Below, piece after piece: positions 6,223 through 17,393 of a DNA stretch of 43,417 bases. Each line of letters begins with the position of its first letter. Within the stretch, counting starts at the first letter, position 1. A program made the translations under genes and the position numbers. A model generated the notes under the pieces. It saw nothing but the letters and a program-made list of their open reading frames with translations, was not told the origin of the DNA and did no database searches. The DNA comes from Akkermansia muciniphila (GTDB taxonomy: Bacteria; Verrucomicrobiota; Verrucomicrobiia; Limisphaerales; F1-80-MAGS106): NCBI GenBank assembly GCA_945865375.1, contig CAMBEJ010000026.1, forward strand, positions 1 to 43,417, written 5' to 3'.

Positions 6223-8346
6223 ATGGACCTTCGTGAATTTGCGGAGCAAGTGTTGTTCGCGACCACGCTCGAAGAAAAGCTGCGATGTCCCGAGGCGATT
6301 GAGGACGCACAGCCTGGCAAATCTCTTGGATCAGCGCCTCCGATGCCCGGGCGCCCCATCGGCTTAGCTTTCAAACCGAGCGGCTCCGGAAAATCCGATT
6401 TCCCCAGATTGCATCGCCTCGACCAGGAAGCGGAGCGAGGCCGGCTGCTCCACTTCTTTGCAAACCACGAATTGCTGGCCACAGAGCTGATGGCGCTCGT
6501 GTTGCTGCGGTTCCCGGAGGCCCCATCGGCTTTCCGAAAAGGAGTTCTGGAAACGCTCAAGGACGAACAGATCCACACCCGCCTCTACCTGGATCGGATG
6601 AGGGAGTGCGGCACCGAGTTCGGCAGCATCCCTGTCAGTGGATATTTCTGGAGGGCCGTGTCCCCGATGGAAACGCCCATGGACTACGTGGCCGGGCTGA
6701 GCCTCACATTTGAGCAAGCAAACCTCGATTTTTGCCGTCACTTTGCCAGGGAATTCCAGTCCGTTGGCGACACGGAAACAGCACGGTTGCTGGACACTAT
6801 CTATCGTGACGAGATCGCGCACGTCGCTCATGGATTAAAATGGTTCCGGCGGTGGAAGAATCCCGATCAAACTGATTGGGAGGCCTTTTGTCAGCAGTTG
6901 AAATACCCGCTCTCCCCAAACAGAGCCAAGGGCGCACCATTGAACGTCGAGGGGCGCCAGGCCGCTGGAATGGAGCCCGATTTCATCGAGAATCTCGCCG
7001 TTTTCTCTCAGTCCAAGGGCCGCACGCCCCGAGTCTATGTTTTCAACCCCTTTACAGAGGAGCACATCGCAAAAGGCGCCCGATTCACACCCGTTCGCGC
7101 ACAGTCGATTCTCGCGCGTGATCTCGAGAATCTGCCGCAGTTTCTTTGCAGGCAAGACGACATCGTCCTGGTGAACAACCTGCCATCGGCCGGATTCTTG
7201 AACTCCATCCAGCAAGCGGGATTTCCATTGCCAGAGTTTGCTCAAGTCCAGGGTTGCGCGGAACCAAGCAGCCCACTCGCGCTCAGAAAACTGGGAGGCT
7301 TGCGCCCTTGGGCCTGGGGGCCGGACAGTCTGAAACTGTTTGGCCCCTTGGCGTCAAACCTGACCGACGACAATACGCTGAGGCTTCCTGCGTATCATGA
7401 GGGAATCGCGGCGCTCTACTCAAAAACGTGGAGCGCGGCCTTTTTTCGGCGGCTCCTGAAGACGATGGAAGCGCCTCCCTGGTTATGCACGGAACAGGAG
7501 GCCGGCATCGTGGCGGACACAATGGATGAGGCTCTCAAAGCGATTGCCTCCATTCGCGGACGTGGGCATCACCGGGTCGTTGTGAAGGAATCGTTCGGGC
7601 TGGCCGGCCACAACATGATTCGGTTGTGGGAACCGGAGCTGCTGACCACTCACCGGGCCTGGATCGAGCGCGGTTTGGGGAACGGCCACCCGCTCGTCAT
7701 CGAACCCTGGCTCGATCGGGTGCTGGATTTTTCTGTTCAGTTGGAGATGGAACCTTGTGGACTCAAACGAGTCGGATTTACGGGTTTGCGGAACGATTTG
7801 CGGGGACAGTTCCAAGCCAACTGGGCCGAACCGAATCATGAAAAGTGTGTCCCAAACCAAGTCCTGAAGCTGCTCCGCGCCCCCAGCATCGATCCCGGGA
7901 ATATCCACATCTTCTACAAGCAGGTTGTCTCATTCCTCGAGGTTGAGTTCCGCAGCGCCGGATTCCTGGGGCCGGTTGGAATCGACGCCTTCGTCTACAG
8001 AACGCCCCTTGGCGACTGCCGTCTCAAGCCGGTCGTGGAGATTAACCCACGCTACACGATGGGCCGCTTGACGCTTGAGTTGATGAAGCAGGTTTGCCCA
8101 GGTTCCACAGGAGTTTTCAAGTTGACGAGCCGGGCGGCGCTGCGATCGGAAGGCTTCGAATCCTTCGTCGTGTTTGCCAAGAACGCGGCGGAACGGTTTC
8201 CCATCACCTTCGCAGGCCACCCGCGACCTCGGCTCAGTGAGGGGCTCGTGGTCCTGAACGATCCCACCCGCGCTGAGGGATTTCTAGCAACATTCCGAGT
8301 GGGTAAGGGTCCGGGCTCAGGCCATGATGTGGAACGGTGGATTTGA
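6223..8346 (+). CDS. DUF455 ferritin-like domain fused to ATP-grasp domain
   Basis: This is a 707-residue cytoplasmic protein with two parts. Residues 1-215 form a DUF455 ferritin-like helical domain. It begins MDLREFAEQVLFATTLEEKL and keeps candidate di-metal ligands: E83 and E88 in HELLATE, E115 and H118 in DEQIH, E164 in FEQAN, E197 and H200 in DEIAH. Residues about 270-645 are an ATP-grasp-like domain with nucleotide lysine K455 in VVVKESFG, hinge E494 in VIEPW, and metal-binding D588 and E606/N608/R610 in VVEINPRYTMG. DUF455 proteins are usually stand-alone, about 270 residues. ATP-grasp enzymes ligate a carboxylate to an amine or thiol, so the fusion could couple a metal-oxidase reaction with a ligation; that is inference. 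The gene is monocistronic. Confidence 0.82.
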   Translation: MDLREFAEQVLFATTLEEKLRCPEAIEDAQPGKSLGSAPPMPGRPIGLAFKPSGSGKSDFPRLHRLDQEAERGRLLHFFANHELLATELMALVLLRFPEAPSAFRKGVLETLKDEQIHTRLYLDRMRECGTEFGSIPVSGYFWRAVSPMETPMDYVAGLSLTFEQANLDFCRHFAREFQSVGDTETARLLDTIYRDEIAHVAHGLKWFRRWKNPDQTDWEAFCQQLKYPLSPNRAKGAPLNVEGRQAAGMEPDFIENLAVFSQSKGRTPRVYVFNPFTEEHIAKGARFTPVRAQSILARDLENLPQFLCRQDDIVLVNNLPSAGFLNSIQQAGFPLPEFAQVQGCAEPSSPLALRKLGGLRPWAWGPDSLKLFGPLASNLTDDNTLRLPAYHEGIAALYSKTWSAAFFRRLLKTMEAPPWLCTEQEAGIVADTMDEALKAIASIRGRGHHRVVVKESFGLAGHNMIRLWEPELLTTHRAWIERGLGNGHPLVIEPWLDRVLDFSVQLEMEPCGLKRVGFTGLRNDLRGQFQANWAEPNHEKCVPNQVLKLLRAPSIDPGNIHIFYKQVVSFLEVEFRSAGFLGPVGIDAFVYRTPLGDCRLKPVVEINPRYTMGRLTLELMKQVCPGSTGVFKLTSRAALRSEGFESFVVFAKNAAERFPITFAGHPRPRLSEGLVVLNDPTRAEGFLATFRVGKGPGSGHDVERWI

Positions 8347-8537
8347 ATTGAGGCTGTGTGACGCGCATGCAGTTCACAGAACTGTGAGAGGCGCCGTGGC
8401 GAACCCCGCCTGCTGATTTCGTATTGACCACCTCGGAGGGTCCAACCTATTGTCATGGAACAAGAAAGGAAGGAATTCAAAACCGCCATGTCGCTTCTGA
8501 CTGCGTCACTGAGGCGGTCGAGTACCTCTTAGCCCTT

Positions 8538-10244
8538 ATGAACATCGCCAAAGCCCTTCGATACACCTTGCGCTGCTTGCTCTGCACAGGCGCGCTCGTG
8601 ACAGCGACGCCTGCACGGGCTGTCGTACCCGAACACACGGTTAAAAATGGCGCGGTGTCCATCAAGGGAGTAGGCCAGGACAATCCGATCCTCTACGACA
8701 ACGACTGGTGGTTCGACGTCTTGGACAAAGATTACCTCTGGGCCCAGGCCAGTCTCGGCCACGCCAATCTGCGCGGAAACATCGTTTCGCGCGACATGTG
8801 GGAGTGGCAGAATGGCTACGTTTACAGGATGCAAGACTCGGTGGAGGACGCAGGAAAAGCCCTCAAACTCGCACGCGACTCCGGCCTTAAGAACATCCCG
8901 GATCTGACCCTCGGCTCCGACCGCGTCCTGCTGCGCCCGGACAGCGGACGTATCGAGGACACTGCTCCTCAGCCCACCGACGGCAGCCGGCTCATCGTGG
9001 CGGAAGCGGAGAAGGCTTCGCCGGAGAAACCGTTGCTCGTGTTTTCCGGTGGTCCGTTGAGCACCGTGGCCAATGCGCTGCTCACGAACCCCGAAATTGG
9101 GCCCAACCTCGTGGTGTTCAATCTGATGGTCGCTGGCGGTTACAACGGCAACGACGCCTGGGCCACCTATGTCGTCGCCAAAAAGACGCGGCTCGTCGAT
9201 TGGGCGACCGGAGCGTTTTGGGACAAGAACTCGATCTTCACCGCGACGGATTTCGAGGGGCTGCCAAAGAATCCTTTTTTTGATGACATGCGCGAATTCA
9301 TCAAGTCAGAACTGGGCCAGGCCAACCAACTCGGCGACGGCGCGGCGCTCGTCTGGCTCTGGCGGAACGACTGCTGGGCCGGTGCGAAGCTCCGGCGAGC
9401 CGTCTGGCACGGAAAGAATGTGAGCTTCGTTGAGGTGAAATCCGGGGAGCCTGCGGACGTGCTCGACATTCCCAAAAAGTCTACCCGCTTGAAAGCCAGC
9501 CGCGAGGAGTTCCTTCGCGTGATTAGCAACTCGACTTTATTCCCGGCCGGGCCGGTGGAGAGAAATTATTATGAACTCCGCCTCTACACAGTGACGTCGG
9601 ACAAGATGGATGGCCTGCTGGAACGTTTCCGCGACACGGTGGAGCCGGTGCGGCTCAAGCACCGCATTTCGACGGTCGGCTACTGGGTCGCGCCTAGCAC
9701 CACCCTTGGGGCGATGTTCGTTTATCTGATGGCATCGGCGAGCAAGGACGAGCTGCAGAAGCACGAGAAGGAGTTTGGCGCGGACGCGCAGTTCAAAGAG
9801 GGCTATGCCGCCTCGAGCAAAAAGCATGGTAAGACGGTCGATCACATTTCCTCGATCCCACTCGCCGTGGACGCGACGGCGAAGTTTGATTTTGACTCCG
9901 GCCAGAAACCGCGGGCCTTTGATCTTCGGATTTACTCCGTGTTGCCGGGCAAGCTCGCCACCTTCCGTGATCGTTGGCGTGACCACGCGGTGCCGATCTA
10001 CGAGCGGCATGGATTGCACAGCGTCGGCTGGTGGGTTGCAGAGAAAAAGGGCTCCGATGGTAATGATCAGTTCATCTGCCTGCTGGCAGGTGAGAACATC
10101 CCGGCGATTCAGAAGTCGATCAGTGAATTCCACCAGGATGCCCAGTGGATCAGCGTTGAAAAGCAGACCGAAGCTAGCGGCAAGCTGCGTTTCGGTGTCA
10201 AAGCCTACAAGCTCACGCCAACGGACTTTTCTCCTCTCAAATGA
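8538..10244 (+). CDS. Exported nucleoside-hydrolase-like protein with two NIPSNAP domains
   Basis: This is a 568-residue protein. I use the ATG at 8538 because it begins a signal peptide (MNIAKALRYTLRCLLCTGAL, cleavage near ARA-VV); the open frame from 8424 adds unrelated residues. The N-terminal half (about residues 45-330) has DNDWWFDVLDKDYLWAQA, a LLVFSGGPLSTVANAL strand-loop and repeated WATG/W elements, reminiscent of the inosine-uridine nucleoside hydrolase fold; the match is weak. The C-terminal part holds two NIPSNAP (dimeric alpha-beta barrel) domains, starting at YYELRLYTV and at AFDLRIYSVL. NIPSNAP proteins often sit in secreted catabolic systems of this phylum. The 3' end overlaps that of the convergent ankyrin gene by 40 bases. 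Confidence 0.75.
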   Translation: MNIAKALRYTLRCLLCTGALVTATPARAVVPEHTVKNGAVSIKGVGQDNPILYDNDWWFDVLDKDYLWAQASLGHANLRGNIVSRDMWEWQNGYVYRMQDSVEDAGKALKLARDSGLKNIPDLTLGSDRVLLRPDSGRIEDTAPQPTDGSRLIVAEAEKASPEKPLLVFSGGPLSTVANALLTNPEIGPNLVVFNLMVAGGYNGNDAWATYVVAKKTRLVDWATGAFWDKNSIFTATDFEGLPKNPFFDDMREFIKSELGQANQLGDGAALVWLWRNDCWAGAKLRRAVWHGKNVSFVEVKSGEPADVLDIPKKSTRLKASREEFLRVISNSTLFPAGPVERNYYELRLYTVTSDKMDGLLERFRDTVEPVRLKHRISTVGYWVAPSTTLGAMFVYLMASASKDELQKHEKEFGADAQFKEGYAASSKKHGKTVDHISSIPLAVDATAKFDFDSGQKPRAFDLRIYSVLPGKLATFRDRWRDHAVPIYERHGLHSVGWWVAEKKGSDGNDQFICLLAGENIPAIQKSISEFHQDAQWISVEKQTEASGKLRFGVKAYKLTPTDFSPLK

Positions 10245-11479
10245 AACCCGTGCAATGGGTGGTCGGTTAGAATCGATGCCCTCTCATAACTGGTCACCAG
10301 CCCCCACCCGCTGCCCTGGCGCCTGTGGATGAGGGTCGTTCCCCCGCGCAACAGCCCGTTGATCCCGAAGCGAGTGCCGTTCGCCATTTTTTCCACATAG
10401 GGCACCATCCAACCCAAGCCGGCGGCCTCGAGGCGTCCAGCATTCGACGGCTCGGCTAGGAAGTCATCGGGGCTCAAGGCCGATGCGCCACCGCTATCTT
10501 CCTCCCCCAACAGAAGAGGACGCTCGAAGTCCGTCGTGTTGATTTCGAACGTCAGCGCCCGACTTGAGATGTAGTCGATGCGCTCGATACCCTGGATGCG
10601 CGCCTCGTTGAACCATCGTGGGAAGGGACCTTTGTGGCGCGTATCAATGGCAGCAATGCCTCTGATGAGTGTCGGGTCTGCGGTTTTCGCCGCGTCCAGC
10701 AGGTCACCGCAGGCACGGACGTCGGCGGGCTGGAGCGTGGCACCGCAGGTCAGGAGCAGGCGGCACATGCGCCAGTTCGACGCCTGGAGCGCCTCCATGA
10801 GCGGAGTGGGGCCGGCTGCGTAACGTTCGTTCACCGAAACGCCCTCCTTGATCACTCGCTCGACGGACCGCGTGTCATCATCGCCGTCCCCGCAGGGGAA
10901 GCGAGCGAGCATGTGCAGCGCGCTCCGCCCGGTCGTTGCATCCGTGCCGCCGTACGCCCCGTGGTTCAGCAGCAACCGGATCAGGTCCCCTCGACCTAGC
11001 TTATCAGCGAGCGTGAGCGGCACTTGGCAGCCGATCTCGCGCGTGTTCGGTTCGGATCCGTGCTCAAGGAGATAACGGGTCGCAGCGAGCTGTCCAGCCT
11101 TCACTGCCTCCGCGAGGGGCACGCAGGCGCTGGTGCCGCACCGGTCCATCATCACTCCGGCGCGGAGCCGCGCGGCCAACTCGGGGAGATCGCCCGCCCG
11201 AGCTGCGGCGCAGACCAGCTCGAGTTTCTCATGCTCTCCAGGAACCTCCATCTTGATTGTTGAAAGCAGGAGCTCCGTCTCCTCGGCACTAAGATGTAGC
11301 GTCGTGCCAAGACGGTGCCAGACCCGGGTTCCAGGGACATAGAGGTTTGCGAGCCATTCCTCGACCACCTCGGCTGCGATCGTGAGCCCTTCATCCTGCA
11401 AACCCTTGACCACGCCGATCACGCCGAGCCCCCGCTTGTCGAGGATCATTCCAAGTGCTGTTCCCCATTCGTGTCGCAT
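10205..11479 (-). CDS. Ankyrin-repeat protein with N-terminal HTH-like region
   Basis: A 424-residue protein. Residues about 10-75 (IGVVKGLQDEGLTIAAEVVEE through HRLGTTLHLS) resemble an XRE-type helix-turn-helix domain. From about 90 to 265 come ankyrin-like repeats: LVCAAARAGDLPELAARLRAG, PLAEAVKAGQLAATRYLLEHG, PLTLADKLGRGDLIRLLLNHG, SALHMLARF, and PLMEALQASNWRMCRLLL. The C-terminal 130 residues are of unknown type. Ankyrin repeats mediate protein contacts; fusion to an HTH would suggest a regulator, but the HTH call is uncertain. The start could instead be the ATG at 11449, and no ribosome-binding site is decisive. The gene is divergent from the phosphate operon. Confidence 0.75.
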   Translation of the reverse strand: MRHEWGTALGMILDKRGLGVIGVVKGLQDEGLTIAAEVVEEWLANLYVPGTRVWHRLGTTLHLSAEETELLLSTIKMEVPGEHEKLELVCAAARAGDLPELAARLRAGVMMDRCGTSACVPLAEAVKAGQLAATRYLLEHGSEPNTREIGCQVPLTLADKLGRGDLIRLLLNHGAYGGTDATTGRSALHMLARFPCGDGDDDTRSVERVIKEGVSVNERYAAGPTPLMEALQASNWRMCRLLLTCGATLQPADVRACGDLLDAAKTADPTLIRGIAAIDTRHKGPFPRWFNEARIQGIERIDYISSRALTFEINTTDFERPLLLGEEDSGGASALSPDDFLAEPSNAGRLEAAGLGWMVPYVEKMANGTRFGINGLLRGGTTLIHRRQGSGWGLVTSYERASILTDHPLHGFHLRGEKSVGVSL

Positions 11480-11609
11480 TCAAACTTGAGTTCGATGTTT
11501 AGACGGTAGTGGACGGTACACTCGAATCATGATCGGATCAAGGCGGCCGTCTGAACTTGCCTTGCTTTTGGTCCTGGACAACAGGAAGGACCTTGCCGAG
11601 GCGAGAAGA

Positions 11610-11631
11610 TTGTTTCACAATTGTAACAGAA
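11610..11631. promoter_or_regulatory. Imperfect palindrome upstream of the phosphate operon
   Basis: A 22-base imperfect palindrome centred on CACAATTGTAAC lies about 50 bases upstream of the phoU-fusion start. Its half-sites match at 8 of 11 positions. Read on the minus strand it contains CTGTTACA, which faintly resembles a PHO-box half-site. An operator or PhoB-type site is a guess from position only. Confidence 0.3.
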
Positions 11632-11681
11632 GCGACATATTTAGGCAACCCGCGTCCGGCAAAGTATTTATTAAACTCGTT

Positions 11682-12779
11682 ATGGCCACTCACTACGAAG
11701 AATCCTTGCAGCGCGATGTGGAACGTATCCGCAGCAGAGTGAAGGAAATGGCGGACCTGGCCGCCGGGGCGCTTGACGCCTGTTTGCGCGGGCTGATCGA
11801 GCGCAACCGGCAGCTCGGCTACTCGGTCATCTTGCGCGACCACCGTATCGACGCCCTCGAAAAGGAGATCGACCGGCTCTGTCTCGAATTCATTGTGCGT
11901 CAGCTCCCGGTGGCCAAGCACCTTCGCTTCGCCTACGTCACGATCAAGATCAACCAGGAGATCGAGCGCATCGGTGACTATGCGGAGAGCATCGCGCGCC
12001 AGATTCTCAAGGTCACCAACTTCGACTTTTCCATTCTGTTGGATCGCTACCGGCAGATCGCCGGGCTGGCCATCCCGATGTTCCGCGACGCGGTAAAGGC
12101 CTACCTGACCGAGGATGTCGACTTAGCGCGTCGGCTCCAGGTCGTGGAAGAAGAAGTGGATGACCTCAAGAACGTGATCAACGCGGAACTCTTCCAGCTC
12201 CGGCAGGAAAACAAAATTCCGCTCGAAGCGCTCACCTCGCTGATGACGGTTGCTCGCCGCTTCGAGCGCGTTTCCGACCAGGCGAAAAACATCTGCGAGG
12301 AGACGCTCTACATGATCACCGGCGAATACCAGAAGCACGCTGGCGGCGACACATGGCGAGTGTTGTTCATCGACGAGCACAACGCCTGTCGCAGCCCGAT
12401 GGCTGAGGGCATCGCCAACTCGTTGAGCCAGCCAAAGTTCATCTTCGCCAGCGCGGGACTCGACCCCAAACCCGTGGACCCGGCAACGGTGTCGTTTCTG
12501 AAGGAAAAAACCATTGATATCTCCCGTATCGCAGCGCGCGCTGTTGAAGCCGTGCCAAATCTGGAGAACTACCAGATCATTGTGGCGCTGGCCAAGGATG
12601 CCAGGAGGGCCTTCCCTCTGAAGACCAAGTGCATCTGCCTGGACTGGAGCATTCCCGATCCCTCCAAGGCTTCAGGATCGCCCGCAGAAGTGAAGAAAGT
12701 TTACGAGGAAGCCTACCAGAATCTGCAAATGCAGATTCAAGACCTCGCCGAAGGCATCCTTGGTGACAAGATCGATTAA
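11682..12779 (+). CDS. phoU: PhoU fused to a catalytically altered LMW-phosphatase/ArsC-like domain
   Basis: This is a 365-residue protein. Residues 1-215 are a PhoU domain with both three-helix repeats, each with its metal-cluster motif: ERIGDYAESIA (E94, D99) and ERVSDQAKNI (E195, D199). PhoU represses the phosphate regulon and restrains the Pst transporter. Residues 225-365 are a low-molecular-weight phosphatase/arsenate-reductase-like domain (VLFIDEHNACRSPMAEG). In active members the loop begins with the nucleophilic Cys (C-x5-R), but here that position is Asp (D231). The loop Arg (R237), Ser238 and the downstream general-acid element WSIPDP are kept. It probably binds an oxyanion without catalysis. 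The start at 11682 gives the usual PhoU N-terminus; the open frame upstream is unrelated. First gene of the operon. Confidence 0.9.
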   Translation: MATHYEESLQRDVERIRSRVKEMADLAAGALDACLRGLIERNRQLGYSVILRDHRIDALEKEIDRLCLEFIVRQLPVAKHLRFAYVTIKINQEIERIGDYAESIARQILKVTNFDFSILLDRYRQIAGLAIPMFRDAVKAYLTEDVDLARRLQVVEEEVDDLKNVINAELFQLRQENKIPLEALTSLMTVARRFERVSDQAKNICEETLYMITGEYQKHAGGDTWRVLFIDEHNACRSPMAEGIANSLSQPKFIFASAGLDPKPVDPATVSFLKEKTIDISRIAARAVEAVPNLENYQIIVALAKDARRAFPLKTKCICLDWSIPDPSKASGSPAEVKKVYEEAYQNLQMQIQDLAEGILGDKID

Positions 12780-12794
12780 CCAAAACAAGAACGA

Positions 12795-13721
12795 ATGATG
12801 ACCAAAAAGCACCAACTCCAATGGGGCGTCCGCGTGGGAGCTGTCGCAGCAATAGCTGCCGGACTTGCTCTGAGCGGCTGCGGAAAAAAAGAAGAGGCCA
12901 GCGCAGACGGCGTCAAGCCCGTCGGCAAAATCACCTCCATCCAAAACATCGGTTCCGACACGATGGTCAACCTCGCCCAAGCCTGGGCCGAGGGGTACCA
13001 CAAGGTTGATCCCTCCGTGTCGGTAGAAGTTTCTGGCGGCGGCTCCGGCATCGGCGTCGCCGCCCTGATCAACGGCACCTGCGAGATCGCCAACTCCAGC
13101 CGGGCGCTGGAGCCCGATGAAGTCACGAAAGCCAAGGCCAGGCACGGCCATGATCCGAAGGAACACCTCGTGGGCTGGGACGCTCTGGCCATTTACGTGC
13201 ACCCCAGCAATCCGATCACCGAAATCTCCGTCGAGGAGTTGAGTGAAATCTACAAGGAAGGCGGGAAGATCGACAAGTGGTCGCAGGTCGGAGTCACCCT
13301 TCCAGGCGGTGATGAAATGATCCGCGTGAGCCGCCAGAACAACTCAGGAACCTACCACTACTTTCGCGAGATGGTGGTGGGCAAAAAGAGCGACATGAAG
13401 CTAGGCTCCCGCGATATGAATGGCTCGAAGGACGTGGTGGAACTCGTTTCCCGCACACCGAATTCTATTGGTTACAGCGGCCTGGGCTACAAAACCGCCA
13501 AAGTGAAGGTGATCAAGGTTTCCAAGAAGAAAGGGGATCCGCACGTCGAACCGAGCATTGCCACGACTTGGGACAAGTCCTATCCCATCGCTCGCCCGAT
13601 GTTCATGTACACGCCGGGCCAGCCTGAGCCACATGTGCAGAAGTATCTCGATTGGATCCTGACCGACGCCGGCCAGAAGGTCGTCGAGGAGAGTGGCTAC
13701 GTGCCGTTGCAGAAGAAGTAA
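12795..13721 (+). CDS. pstS: PstS, phosphate-binding lipoprotein
   Basis: This 308-residue protein has a lipoprotein signal peptide with the lipobox LSGC near residue 29 (GLALSGCGKKEE), followed by a PBP-like domain. It starts with the family motif NIGSDTMVNLAQAWAEGY, then VSGGGSGIGVAALINGTCEI and the C-terminal NNSGTYHYFREMVVG segment that closes around phosphate. It would capture periplasmic phosphate and deliver it to PstCA. Two in-frame ATGs (12795 and 12798) begin the gene, 15 bases after the phoU-fusion stop. The length is typical. Confidence 0.93.
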   Translation: MMTKKHQLQWGVRVGAVAAIAAGLALSGCGKKEEASADGVKPVGKITSIQNIGSDTMVNLAQAWAEGYHKVDPSVSVEVSGGGSGIGVAALINGTCEIANSSRALEPDEVTKAKARHGHDPKEHLVGWDALAIYVHPSNPITEISVEELSEIYKEGGKIDKWSQVGVTLPGGDEMIRVSRQNNSGTYHYFREMVVGKKSDMKLGSRDMNGSKDVVELVSRTPNSIGYSGLGYKTAKVKVIKVSKKKGDPHVEPSIATTWDKSYPIARPMFMYTPGQPEPHVQKYLDWILTDAGQKVVEESGYVPLQKK

Positions 13722-13788: not shown

Positions 13789-14796
13789 ATGGAAACAATC
13801 GAGACAAATCAACCTTCGTCATCCGCCGTGCTGACGCCTGCGACCGCACCCAAGCGCGGTCGACGCAGCGCTGCCGCTGTCTTGGGCGAACGGTGCATCG
13901 AAGGGCTGATCCGTCTCTGCGGCATCAGTGCCATCGTCTTTGTCTTCGCCATTTTTTTCTTCGTCTTTCGCGAAGGAGCACCGATTCTGTTCGGCGGCGG
14001 CACGGGGGGGCATGGCGTGACGGAGCCGGGGGCGGCCAAGCCCTCGTTCGATCTGGCCAAGTTCCTCTTCACAAAGACGTGGTATCCCACCTCCCTCAAC
14101 ACCCCGCGCTACGGCATTGGCGCGCTCATAATAGGCACGTTCAGCGTCACTTTGCTCGCCATGGTGATCGCCGTGCCTTTCGGTCTCGGTGCGGCGGTGT
14201 TCCTCTCCGAGTTCTGCGGCAAGAAGGTCAGGGAGACGCTCAAGATCACTATTGAACTGCTCGCCGCGATCCCCAGCGTGGTATGGGGTTTTATCGGCCT
14301 CACGGTGATGAACGTCGTCATCCAAAAAGTGTTCAAAGTCCAGGTCGGTTTGAACGTGCTCAACGCCGCCATTCTGCTCGCGTTGATGAGCGTGCCCATC
14401 ATCGTCAGCATCGGTGAAGACGCGCTCAAGGCCGTGCCCGATTCCTACCGCGAAGCCGGCATTGCGATGGGCTGCACACGCTGGCAGCTCGTCTGGCGTG
14501 TGCTCCTGCCCGCAGCGAAGAATGGGTTGTTGGCCGCCGTGCTGCTGGGCGTCGGCCGCGCGGTTGGAGAGACCATGGCGGTGCTCATGGCCACCGGCCA
14601 TTCCGTCAACATCCCGCACAGCATCTTCGACTCAGTCCGCACGCTCACCGCGACGATCGCCGCCGAACTGGGCGAGACCGCCGAGGGCTCCGACCATTAT
14701 CGCGTGCTGTTTCTTATCGGCATCCTGCTCTTCACCATCACGTTCATCGTGAATCTCCTGGCCGACTTTGCGGTAAAAGGTATTCGCAAGAAGTGA
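13789..14796 (+). CDS. pstC: PstC, phosphate ABC transporter permease
   Basis: A 335-residue integral membrane protein. A polar, basic N-terminal tail of about 35 residues leads into the first helix (LCGISAIVFVFAIFFFVF). The family block PSVVWGFIGLTVMN and the cytoplasmic EAA loop EAGIAMGCTRWQLVWRVLLP, which contacts the ATPase, are intact, as is GVGRAVGETMAVLMATG. The ATG at 13789 is chosen because residues encoded upstream overlap the pstS 3' end. The gene ends four bases into the pstA GTG start, so the two are coupled. Confidence 0.93.
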   Translation: METIETNQPSSSAVLTPATAPKRGRRSAAAVLGERCIEGLIRLCGISAIVFVFAIFFFVFREGAPILFGGGTGGHGVTEPGAAKPSFDLAKFLFTKTWYPTSLNTPRYGIGALIIGTFSVTLLAMVIAVPFGLGAAVFLSEFCGKKVRETLKITIELLAAIPSVVWGFIGLTVMNVVIQKVFKVQVGLNVLNAAILLALMSVPIIVSIGEDALKAVPDSYREAGIAMGCTRWQLVWRVLLPAAKNGLLAAVLLGVGRAVGETMAVLMATGHSVNIPHSIFDSVRTLTATIAAELGETAEGSDHYRVLFLIGILLFTITFIVNLLADFAVKGIRKK

Positions 14797-15716
14797 CACC
14801 CATGAGCGTACCCGCATCCAGCACGGCCGGCCTCTTCACGGAGACGCCTTTCATCCGAAAAAAGCGACGCACCGAGAGGCTCGCCCAGTGCCTCTTCGGC
14901 GCGATGGCACTGGCGATGGTCATCCCGCTGCTGCTGATCCTCGGCTACCTCGTTTTCAAGGCCGCGCCGCTTCTCTCCTGGGACTTCCTCACCACCAACC
15001 CGACCAACGGCATGAGGAAAGGCGGCATTTGGTCCGCGTTGCTCGGGACGGTCTATCTGGTCGTCATCTCGCTCTGCATCTCGGCTCCGATCGGCGTGCT
15101 GGCGGCGGTGTACCTCAACGAATACGCCAAGGATAACTGGTTCACCCGCATCGTGAATCTCTCCGTCGTGAATCTCGCGGGCGTGCCTAGCATTGTTCAC
15201 GCGCTGTTTGGCCTCGGCGCTTTTGTTCTCTTTGCCCGCCTTGACCGCTCGATCCTCGCAGCCTCCCTCACGCTCGCCATCATGACGATGCCCGTCATCA
15301 TCGCCTCGACCAAGGAAGCGTTGGCCTCCGTGCCGGTGAGCTTCCGCGAAGCATGCTGGAACGTCGGCGCCACGCGATGGCAGACCATCAAGGCCATCGT
15401 CCTGCCCAATTCCATCAGCGGCATCCTGACGGGCGTCATCCTCCAAGTTAGCCGCACAGCCGGCGAAACCGCCCCGATCATGTTCACCGGCGCCGTTTTC
15501 TACCGGAACATTCCCGAGGGAAACGTGTTCGCCTACGGCATCAAGGATCAGTGCATGGCCCTCTCGATGCACCTCTACACCGTCACCACCCAGGTCACCA
15601 ATGCGCCCGAAGCCCTGCCCTACGCCATCGCGGTCACGCTCCTCGGCACCGTCCTGCTGGTCAATGCCACGGCCATTGTCTTCCGTGTCTGGCTGAGAAA
15701 TCGAAAGAAATGGTGA
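14793..15716 (+). CDS. pstA: PstA, phosphate ABC transporter permease
   Basis: This 307-residue membrane protein has six predicted helices and the conserved segments NLSVVNLAGVPSIVHALFGL, EACWNVGATRWQTIKAIVLP (EAA loop for the ATPase) and QVSRTAGETAPIMFTGA. It pairs with PstC to form the phosphate channel. The start is probably the GTG at 14793, which overlaps the pstC stop as GTGA; an ATG at 14802 is the alternative. About 115 bases separate it from pstB1. This gap contains a CATCCGTGTCCATTC-type segment of the kind seen in other intergenic regions of this window and no terminator. Confidence 0.92.
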   Translation: MTPMSVPASSTAGLFTETPFIRKKRRTERLAQCLFGAMALAMVIPLLLILGYLVFKAAPLLSWDFLTTNPTNGMRKGGIWSALLGTVYLVVISLCISAPIGVLAAVYLNEYAKDNWFTRIVNLSVVNLAGVPSIVHALFGLGAFVLFARLDRSILAASLTLAIMTMPVIIASTKEALASVPVSFREACWNVGATRWQTIKAIVLPNSISGILTGVILQVSRTAGETAPIMFTGAVFYRNIPEGNVFAYGIKDQCMALSMHLYTVTTQVTNAPEALPYAIAVTLLGTVLLVNATAIVFRVWLRNRKKW

Positions 15717-15831: not shown

Positions 15832-16593
15832 ATGACTCAGCCGAAAAAAATCGACGTCCAGAACCTGCGCCTCAGCTACGGGCCGAAAGAGGTCATCCAC
15901 GGCATCTCCTTTCACATCGAGCCAAACGAAATCATCGGCATCATCGGCCCGGCGCAGAGCGGCAAGACATCGTTGCTCCGCTGCATCAACCGGACAATTG
16001 ATTTCACGGCCAGCGCGAAAGTCAGTGGATCCATCAAGGTGGACGGCGAGGACGTGGTGACGACGCGCAACGTTTATGAATTGCGCCGGAAGATTGGCAT
16101 GGTTGCCCCGCTGCCCGTCGGCCTGCCTTTGAGCATCTACGACAATGTCGCCTTCGCCCCGCGCACCTCGGGCATGAACAACAGGTCAGACCTCGATGGT
16201 CTTGTGGAAAAATGCCTCCGCCAGGCCGCGCTTTGGAACGAAGTCAAGGACCGCCTCGATTCCCTCGGCACCAAGTTGAGCGGCGGTCAGCAACAACGCC
16301 TCACCATCGCCCGCGCGCTGTCGCATCAGCCGGAGATTCTCTGCCTCGACGAATTCAGCATCGCCATCGATCCTGTGACGACGATGCGCATCGAGGACGT
16401 GCTCAAGGAGCTCAAGCGAGAGATGACCATCATCCTTGTGACCAACCTCGTGCAACAAGCCCGCCGGCTCGCCGCGCGCACCCTGTTCCTGTGGAACGGC
16501 GAGATCATCGAACTGGATACGACCGACGTCATATTCAGCGAGCGGGCGAAGGATCCGCGCACGCGCGATTATGTGAACGGGATTTTCGGATGA
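15832..16593 (+). CDS. pstB: PstB1, phosphate ABC ATPase with degenerate Q- and H-loops
   Basis: This 253-residue ABC ATPase most resembles PstB (SIYDNVAFAPR, SGGQQQRLTIARAL). The A-loop Tyr16, Walker A GPAQSGKT (39-46), signature LSGGQ (149-153) and Walker B with catalytic Glu (ILCLDE, D173/E174) are intact. Two catalytic switches are lost. The Q-loop, GMVFQ in the family, reads GMVAP (Pro93). The H-loop, VTHNM in the family, reads VTNLV (Asn205). The nucleotide site built on this subunit's Walker motifs should therefore bind but not turn over ATP well. The stop codon overlaps the pstB2 start (ATGA), indicating paired synthesis. No sign of frameshift; the frame is clean throughout. Confidence 0.92.
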   Translation: MTQPKKIDVQNLRLSYGPKEVIHGISFHIEPNEIIGIIGPAQSGKTSLLRCINRTIDFTASAKVSGSIKVDGEDVVTTRNVYELRRKIGMVAPLPVGLPLSIYDNVAFAPRTSGMNNRSDLDGLVEKCLRQAALWNEVKDRLDSLGTKLSGGQQQRLTIARALSHQPEILCLDEFSIAIDPVTTMRIEDVLKELKREMTIILVTNLVQQARRLAARTLFLWNGEIIELDTTDVIFSERAKDPRTRDYVNGIFG

Positions 16594-17393
16594 CCACGGA
16601 CACCCTCACCCCATCCAGTGCCGCCGCCGGTGTTGATTACGGAATCACCACCCGCGACCTGAACCTCTGGTACGCCAAGTTTCAGGCGCTAAAAGGCATC
16701 ACCGTCAACATTCAGAAGGGCATCATCACCTCGCTCATCGGCCCCTCCGGCTGCGGCAAGACGACGCTCTTGCGCTGCTTCAACCGCGTGAACGAGCGCT
16801 ACGGCTACGTCACGACAAAGGGTGAAATCAAGCTGCTCGGCAAGAACATCTACGACGAGGACGTCTCCCTCATCGAATTGCGTAAAAGCGTTGGGATGGT
16901 TTTCCAGCGTCCCAACCCGCTGCCCCTTTCCGTTTACGAAAATGTCGTCTTCGGCCTGCGCATTCATGACGACAAAGGGCTGAAGAAATCTGACCGCGAC
17001 GACGCCGTGGAGAAGGCGCTGACCGAAGTGGGACTCTGGAATGATCTCAAGGACCGCCTCGACGAAAAGGCCATCACGCTCCAGCTCGAACAGCAGCAGA
17101 AGCTCTGCATCGCCCGCCTGCTCCCTTTGAAGCCAGAGATCATCCTGATGGACGAGCCGTGCTCCGCGCTGGACGTGAGCGGCACGCGCGCCATCGAGGA
17201 ACTCATGTTCGCCCTCAAGGGCCGCTACACCATCGTCATCGTCACGCACAACATGGCGCAGGCGCGCCGATCCAGCGACGAATGCATCTTCATGCTCATG
17301 GGAGAACTCGTGGAGCACAGCCGCACCACGGATCTTTTCATCACCCCAAAGAACCGGAAGACCGCCGAATACATCGAAGGCCGCTACGGTTGA
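16590..17393 (+). CDS. pstB: PstB2, phosphate ABC ATPase with degenerate signature motif
   Basis: This 267-residue PstB-type ATPase has A-loop Tyr28, Walker A GPSGCGKT (51-58), Q-loop Gln106 in GMVFQRPNPLPLSVYENV, Walker B ILMDEP (D188/E189), D-loop SALD and H-loop His220 (VTHNMAQ), all canonical. The ABC signature, LSGGQQQR in the family, is LQLEQQQK here (164-171), losing the Ser and both Gly that contact the gamma-phosphate. The defect is the mirror image of PstB1's. I start at the ATG 16590 overlapping the pstB1 stop; the frame upstream is a shadow of pstB1. It is the last gene of the operon. Confidence 0.92.
   Translation: MTTDTLTPSSAAAGVDYGITTRDLNLWYAKFQALKGITVNIQKGIITSLIGPSGCGKTTLLRCFNRVNERYGYVTTKGEIKLLGKNIYDEDVSLIELRKSVGMVFQRPNPLPLSVYENVVFGLRIHDDKGLKKSDRDDAVEKALTEVGLWNDLKDRLDEKAITLQLEQQQKLCIARLLPLKPEIILMDEPCSALDVSGTRAIEELMFALKGRYTIVIVTHNMAQARRSSDECIFMLMGELVEHSRTTDLFITPKNRKTAEYIEGRYG

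Follow-up and report, generated by a model that had tools for sequence, protein, structure and literature searches.

The window analyzed here, a stretch of 43,417 nucleotides whose host phylum we take to be Verrucomicrobiota, encodes a predicted Pst phosphate importer in which the PhoU protein is fused to an arsenate reductase-like domain with aspartate in place of the nucleophilic cysteine (hereinafter ArsC*), and in which two adjacent PstB ATPases show complementary losses of their conserved motifs. The explanation that we favor for the whole, with a probability of roughly 0.55 on the strength of the sequence comparisons, is that the two ATPases form an asymmetric heterodimer and that the dead ArsC* domain serves as a docking or regulatory module.

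The fusion gene stands at the head of the operon on the forward strand (11682–12779; 365 amino acids). The longest open reading frame runs from 11529 to 12779; because homologues align from 11682, we place the probable start at the ATG in that position rather than at 11529. Searches with Pfam and NCBIfam profiles recovered the PhoU family TIGR02135 (150.5 bits against a cut-off of 130.25; residues 60–266 of the longest frame) and, C-terminal to it, PF01451 (LMWPc; 49.2 bits against 23.2; residues 278–398); no HAD or receiver family was matched anywhere in the fusion protein with these profiles. The best ArsC family for the C-terminal domain is TIGR02691 (59.5 bits, under its equivalog cut-off of 174.3), and the nearest solved relatives of this part by sequence are glutaredoxin- and thioredoxin-dependent arsenate reductases. 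An AlphaFold2 model built from 40 aligned fusions (pLDDT 92, pTM 0.66) has a strand at residues 225–231 followed by a loop and then a helix at 237–247, and in Foldseek comparisons its PhoU part matched 1t72 (TM 0.94–0.96 by target) and its ArsC part 8p6m and 1jl3 (TM ≤0.88 by target). The PhoU domain spans 11697–12341 (residues 6–220 of the protein) and the ArsC* domain about 12354–12776 (residues 225–365). A preliminary description had assigned the latter to 12350–12779: the domain is indeed there, but with these slightly narrower limits, frame 1 from 12350 being non-coding. A scan of genome contigs retrieved one close relative, the closest named record being a metagenome-assembled genome labelled Akkermansia (89–90% identical); a plasmid search yielded no record covering 80% of the query and, among the matches listed, PhoU only. 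Divergent from the operon lies a gene for an ankyrin-repeat protein (10205–11479, reverse strand).

Read in the frame of 11682, the active-site loop is RVLFIDEHNACRSP, with FIDEHNACRSP at 12366–12398 and an aspartate codon, GAC, at 12372–12374. An ungapped alignment to a solved ArsC (KVMFVCKRNSCRSQ), in which FVCKRNSCRSQ faces FIDEHNACRSP, puts this residue, Asp231, at the position of the nucleophilic cysteine; profiles and alignment thus bear out the earlier recognition of a PhoU fused to an ArsC/phosphatase-like domain without its nucleophile. Tabulating the residue over the complete fusions of the phylum revealed that aspartate is by no means confined to the window: it occupies the position in 38 of 42, with glutamate in 2, glycine in 2 and cysteine in none (the 42 comprise the 40 rows of our alignment, with 36 Asp, 2 Glu, 2 Gly and no Cys, and the loci L239 and L240, both with Asp). 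The 41 other complete fusions rule out an isolated mutation or assembly error at this position. In the standalone ArsC/LMWP domains from the window's order, the cysteine is present in 24/24 instances. Elsewhere in the loop, the 40-row alignment has Asn234 in 35, Cys236 in 33 and Ser238 in 37 rows, and in the acid loop, WSIPDP (12645–12662), Trp322 is invariant (40/40), with Asp326 and Pro327 in 35 and 37 rows, respectively.

These data, combined with pairwise dN/dS values of 0.03–0.23 that resemble those of the PhoU part, identify a conserved pseudo-enzyme domain under selection, which is almost certainly dead and yet maintained. Had a fused arsenate reductase died and simply been left to drift, one might expect the somewhat lower conservation of ArsC* relative to PhoU (mean majority identity of 0.60 vs 0.68 in the 40-row alignment) and the existence of a truncated copy (L241); such a relic is nevertheless very improbable in view of the dN/dS values, the invariant core positions and the retention of the domain in 42 complete fusions from several families and two classes. 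Equally hard to credit, and if anything more so, is a redox switch acting via Cys236: this residue is common enough for the part, but it is missing in seven members, and no second cysteine column exceeds 16/40. The redox cysteine pair of thioredoxin-type ArsC is absent, Cys236 being the sole majority cysteine and the next column (16/40) lying at position 319; moreover, Cys236 is the second cysteine of the loop, beside the arginine, and not a C-x5-R nucleophile. Asp231 (36/40) and Asp326 (35/40) are among the best-kept polar residues, as they would be if the former, with the latter, acted as a nucleophile or metal ligand in another chemistry of the aspartyl phosphate or receiver-like kind. We consider this improbable, as the loop surroundings and the fold are still those of ArsC, no HAD or receiver family is matched, and two members have glycine and two glutamate at position 231. 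These same four exceptions weaken the case for a strict need for aspartate.

The preliminary description had read the domain as a possible phosphate/arsenate sensor attached to PhoU, noting the retention of the oxyanion-binding arginine and the WSIPDP acid loop. Both are present in the window's protein, as are the loop asparagine and serine, and a dead domain whose loop amides and Arg237 (12390–12392) still bound phosphate or arsenate, and which reported this to PhoU or PstB, would fit well with the recurrence of catalytically intact PhoU-ArsC fusions in pst operons across the phylum, an ArsR-ArsC gene being present in three of the four. Across the fusions, however, Arg237 is kept in only 26/40 vs 36/40 for Asp231; it is therefore the aspartate loop, rather than an oxyanion pocket, that constitutes the conserved property, and the sensor in its original form is not supported. 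A carboxylate in the anion pocket would, in addition, be electrostatically unfavorable to an oxyanion. We accordingly regard oxyanion sensing as rather unlikely for the family, and as a possible reading especially for the members that keep the arginine, the window's included.

Of 97 genomes from the same genus and order, 27 have the fusion, which extends to further families of the class and to a second class of the phylum. In a tree of the ArsC-like domains, the Asp-type versions form one clade apart from the standalone domains (support 100/99), on a long branch; they thus represent a single lineage, and the asymmetric ATPase accompanies them in every complete operon. Their separation from the standalone domains gives no support to a standalone ArsC gene found beside a canonical phoU (L066) as their source. 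We also recovered PhoU-ArsC fusions with an intact cysteine in four operons from the class of genome G490 (L235, 3636–9623; L236, 8186–14140; L237, 6831–15171; L238, 3014–10552). These resemble the ArsC* fusion in their two-domain architecture, their association with pst operons and their phylum, but differ in keeping the cysteine, in accompanying a single canonical PstB and in lying at the tail of the operon, often with an ArsR-ArsC gene upstream: in three of the four, an ArsR-type HTH fused to ArsC is encoded at the operon head. Their ArsC domains branch at three or more points among the active domains, indicating at least three separate origins, so that the joining of PhoU to ArsC is recurrent; for the same reason, a common origin with the Asp-type fusions is not supported. 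The active versions with ArsR-ArsC apparently belong to arsenate-linked phosphate operons, a general link between arsenic and phosphate genes being known from arsenic islands (PMC3834237). Their repeated emergence in canonical pst operons speaks in favor of some arsenate or phosphate link for the ArsC* fusion as well.

Downstream of the fusion gene, all on the forward strand, follow pstS for the phosphate-binding protein (12795–13721; TIGR02136, 250.8 bits against a cut-off of 206.6), the permease genes pstC (13789–14796, the longest frame starting at 13693; TIGR02138, 270 against 196.45) and pstA (14793–15716; TIGR00974, 256.6 against 193.45), and the ATPase genes pstB1 (15832–16593) and pstB2 (16590–17393), a single operon that we predict to specify a Pst phosphate importer. 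The order phoU-ArsC*, pstS, pstC, pstA, pstB1, pstB2 holds in 37/37 complete loci (23 and 13 loci from two sets, plus L240), so that the position of the fusion at the operon head, proposed for the window at the outset, is general. One locus (L241, 9356–10210) has a truncated Asp-type fusion in frame with the C-terminal half of PstB2, the intervening genes being missing through either deletion or misassembly.

The two PstB proteins both score under the equivalog cut-off (325 and 275 bits vs 343.2) because of complementary motif losses. PstB1 has an intact signature (LSGGQQQR, 16276–16299), retains the Walker A lysine (GPAQSGKT) and the catalytic glutamate (LDEFSIAID), and has lost the glutamine of the Q-loop (VAPLPVGLP, 16102–16128) and the histidine of the H-loop, which is replaced by asparagine (VTNL, 16438–16449). 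PstB2, conversely, has intact Walker A, Q-loop, Walker B and H-loop motifs (GPSGCGKT, VFQRPNPLP, DEPCSALD and VTHN) with a degenerate signature, LQLEQQQK (17079–17102). Suspected from the window alone to be atypical, these ATPases proved to be systematically so: 43 pairs display strong complementary degeneracy, with VxPLPVGLP lacking the glutamine and VTNL in place of VTHN in PstB1, and LQLEQ (also LLLEQ or LQLDQ) instead of LSGGQ in PstB2. A milder form characterizes 11 more pairs (L132–L142), where VFALP and VTNN in PstB1 are complemented by LPxDQ in PstB2; these come from other families of the phylum and are accompanied by a plain PhoU. The losses are complementary in every pair, and the single PstBs of canonical pstSCAB-phoU operons, examined likewise, have the motifs. 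In a PstB tree, for which the program warned of long branches meeting, the strong and mild PstB1 proteins group in one clade (100/100) and the strong and mild PstB2 proteins in another (100/97); one duplication therefore suffices for all the pairs.

Five operons possess the asymmetric pair without the fusion. Three of these (L128, L130 and L131) combine a strong pair with a plain PhoU at the operon tail, and the remaining two also have a strong pair, accompanied in L186 by a divergent plain PhoU and in L187 by no PhoU within the stretch read. The ArsC* domain is thus not required for the transporter, and either the ATPases became asymmetric before the fusion arose or their asymmetry does not depend on it. 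The L186 operon (6408–9297) contains three tandem pstB-like genes, the third of which has GPAGGGKS and GMVTPMPNPLP, with neither a signature nor an H-loop detectable by a simple pattern.

In ABC ATPases, an ATP site joins two subunits: one contributes the Walker A and B motifs with the Q- and H-loops, its partner the signature (PMC7756269). Adjacency and complementarity suggest an obligate PstB1–PstB2 heterodimer beneath PstC and PstA; its single consensus site would consist of the PstB2 Walker A/B motifs, Q-loop and H-loop together with the PstB1 LSGGQ. The other, made of the PstB1 core and the PstB2 LQLEQ and hence with losses on either side, would bind ATP with poor turnover, as in the degenerate-site exporters; since PstB1 keeps the Walker A lysine and the catalytic glutamate, this second site may retain some activity. 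An asymmetric Pst importer with one hydrolyzing site is thus probable judging from the motifs. As for ArsC*, the alignment and predicted secondary structure make it most likely that Asp231 fills the anion pocket and fixes the loop as if it were occupied, a carboxylate there presumably repelling an anion or taking its place. The domain would then perform no chemistry and would act as a docking or regulatory module that lets the transporter's own PhoU engage the asymmetric ATPase and throttle uptake. Such a docking or gating role is a conjecture about which we have some doubt. Still more tentatively, the operon may define a distinct class of Pst importers, with an obligate asymmetric heterodimer and one hydrolyzing site, in which a PhoU with a dead, self-occupied ArsC docks on one half of the ATPase and governs the uptake of phosphate and perhaps arsenate.

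The window's assembly (93.6% complete) has this PstB pair as its sole one, the next ABC match to PstB reaching 161 bits, and it yielded no second PstS above the cut-off. Likewise, at E≤1e-70 the asymmetric pair is the sole PstB match in G003, G038, G054, G076 and G083, each at least 90% complete; many other fusion genomes also have a canonical PstB. Another contig of the window's genome (L059) codes for a second, plain PhoU (9752–10429). The next genes, up to 12398, encode a phoB-like regulator, whose best family is PhoB at 255 bits, and a kinase resembling PhoR/PnpS at 365 bits; both score under their cut-offs, and the stretch read has no pst transporter genes. This plain PhoU next to PhoB-PhoR would serve the two-component signal. 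In one locus (L057), the fusion operon is immediately preceded by phoB-phoR, and a link between the fusion PhoU and Pho signaling may therefore exist there. Open reading frames beside L149 and L070 that we considered as response regulators were dismissed as lying on the wrong strand or in the wrong frame.

Comparison with known proteins sets these features in relief. Like typical PhoU (TIGR02135; 1t72, 4q25), the fusion has two PhoU repeats, scores above the equivalog cut-off and belongs to a pst operon, but it differs in its C-terminal pseudo-ArsC, its location at the operon head and not the tail, and the second plain PhoU beside PhoB-PhoR. ArsC* shares with ArsC and LMW-PTP (TIGR02691, PF01451; 1jl3, 8p6m) the fold, the P-loop frame (Asn, Ser and often Arg) and the DP acid loop; in contrast to them, it has exchanged Cys for Asp in 38/42 cases, lacks the redox cysteine pair, is part of a PhoU protein and falls under the ArsC equivalog cut-offs. 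Two adjacent pstB genes are also found in Enterococcus faecalis (PstB1/PstB2; PMC12096839) and Bacillus subtilis (PstBA/PstBB; PMC11466899). The E. faecalis proteins have non-overlapping functions (PMC12096839), but that pair is different because both of its copies keep their motifs, whereas the losses in the window-type pair are complementary and fixed. Closer in this respect are degenerate-site ABC exporters such as TAP and Pdr5, in which one subunit loses ATP-core residues and its partner the signature, the Pdr5 version of which, LNVEQ, resembles the LQLEQ of PstB2 (PMC7756269); the window-type Pst differs in being a phosphate importer that keeps the Walker B glutamate and loses the Q-loop glutamine. 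The importers RbsA and NupO also have a degenerate ATP site (PMC11466899), but with both domains in one chain, other substrates and other residues lost. In full-text searches of open-access papers, we found neither a PhoU-LMWP/ArsC fusion nor an asymmetric PstB pair; an LMWP fusion from Methylacidiphilum (PMC2474590) was set aside as a precedent, its partners, serine hydroxymethyltransferase and RpiB, being unrelated.

Textbooks present Pst as the high-affinity phosphate pump, and a symmetric PstB dimer is assumed to drive it; the coupling of PstB to the Pho response through PhoU is still far from well understood. Across many families of a single phylum, Pst is apparently lopsided, and canonical and mildly degenerate relatives survive as intermediates, so that one can test how degenerate ATP sites arose and what they are for in an importer whose substrate is small and easy to measure. 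The union of PhoU with a pseudo-enzyme, alongside a two-faced ATPase, offers a natural asymmetric case for studying PhoU-PstB coupling, and the recurrence of PhoU-ArsC fusions suggests that the choice of phosphate over arsenate, or the reverse, is made directly. If our reading is true, these systems would be the importer counterpart of the degenerate-site exporters, with a pseudo-enzyme as their regulator.
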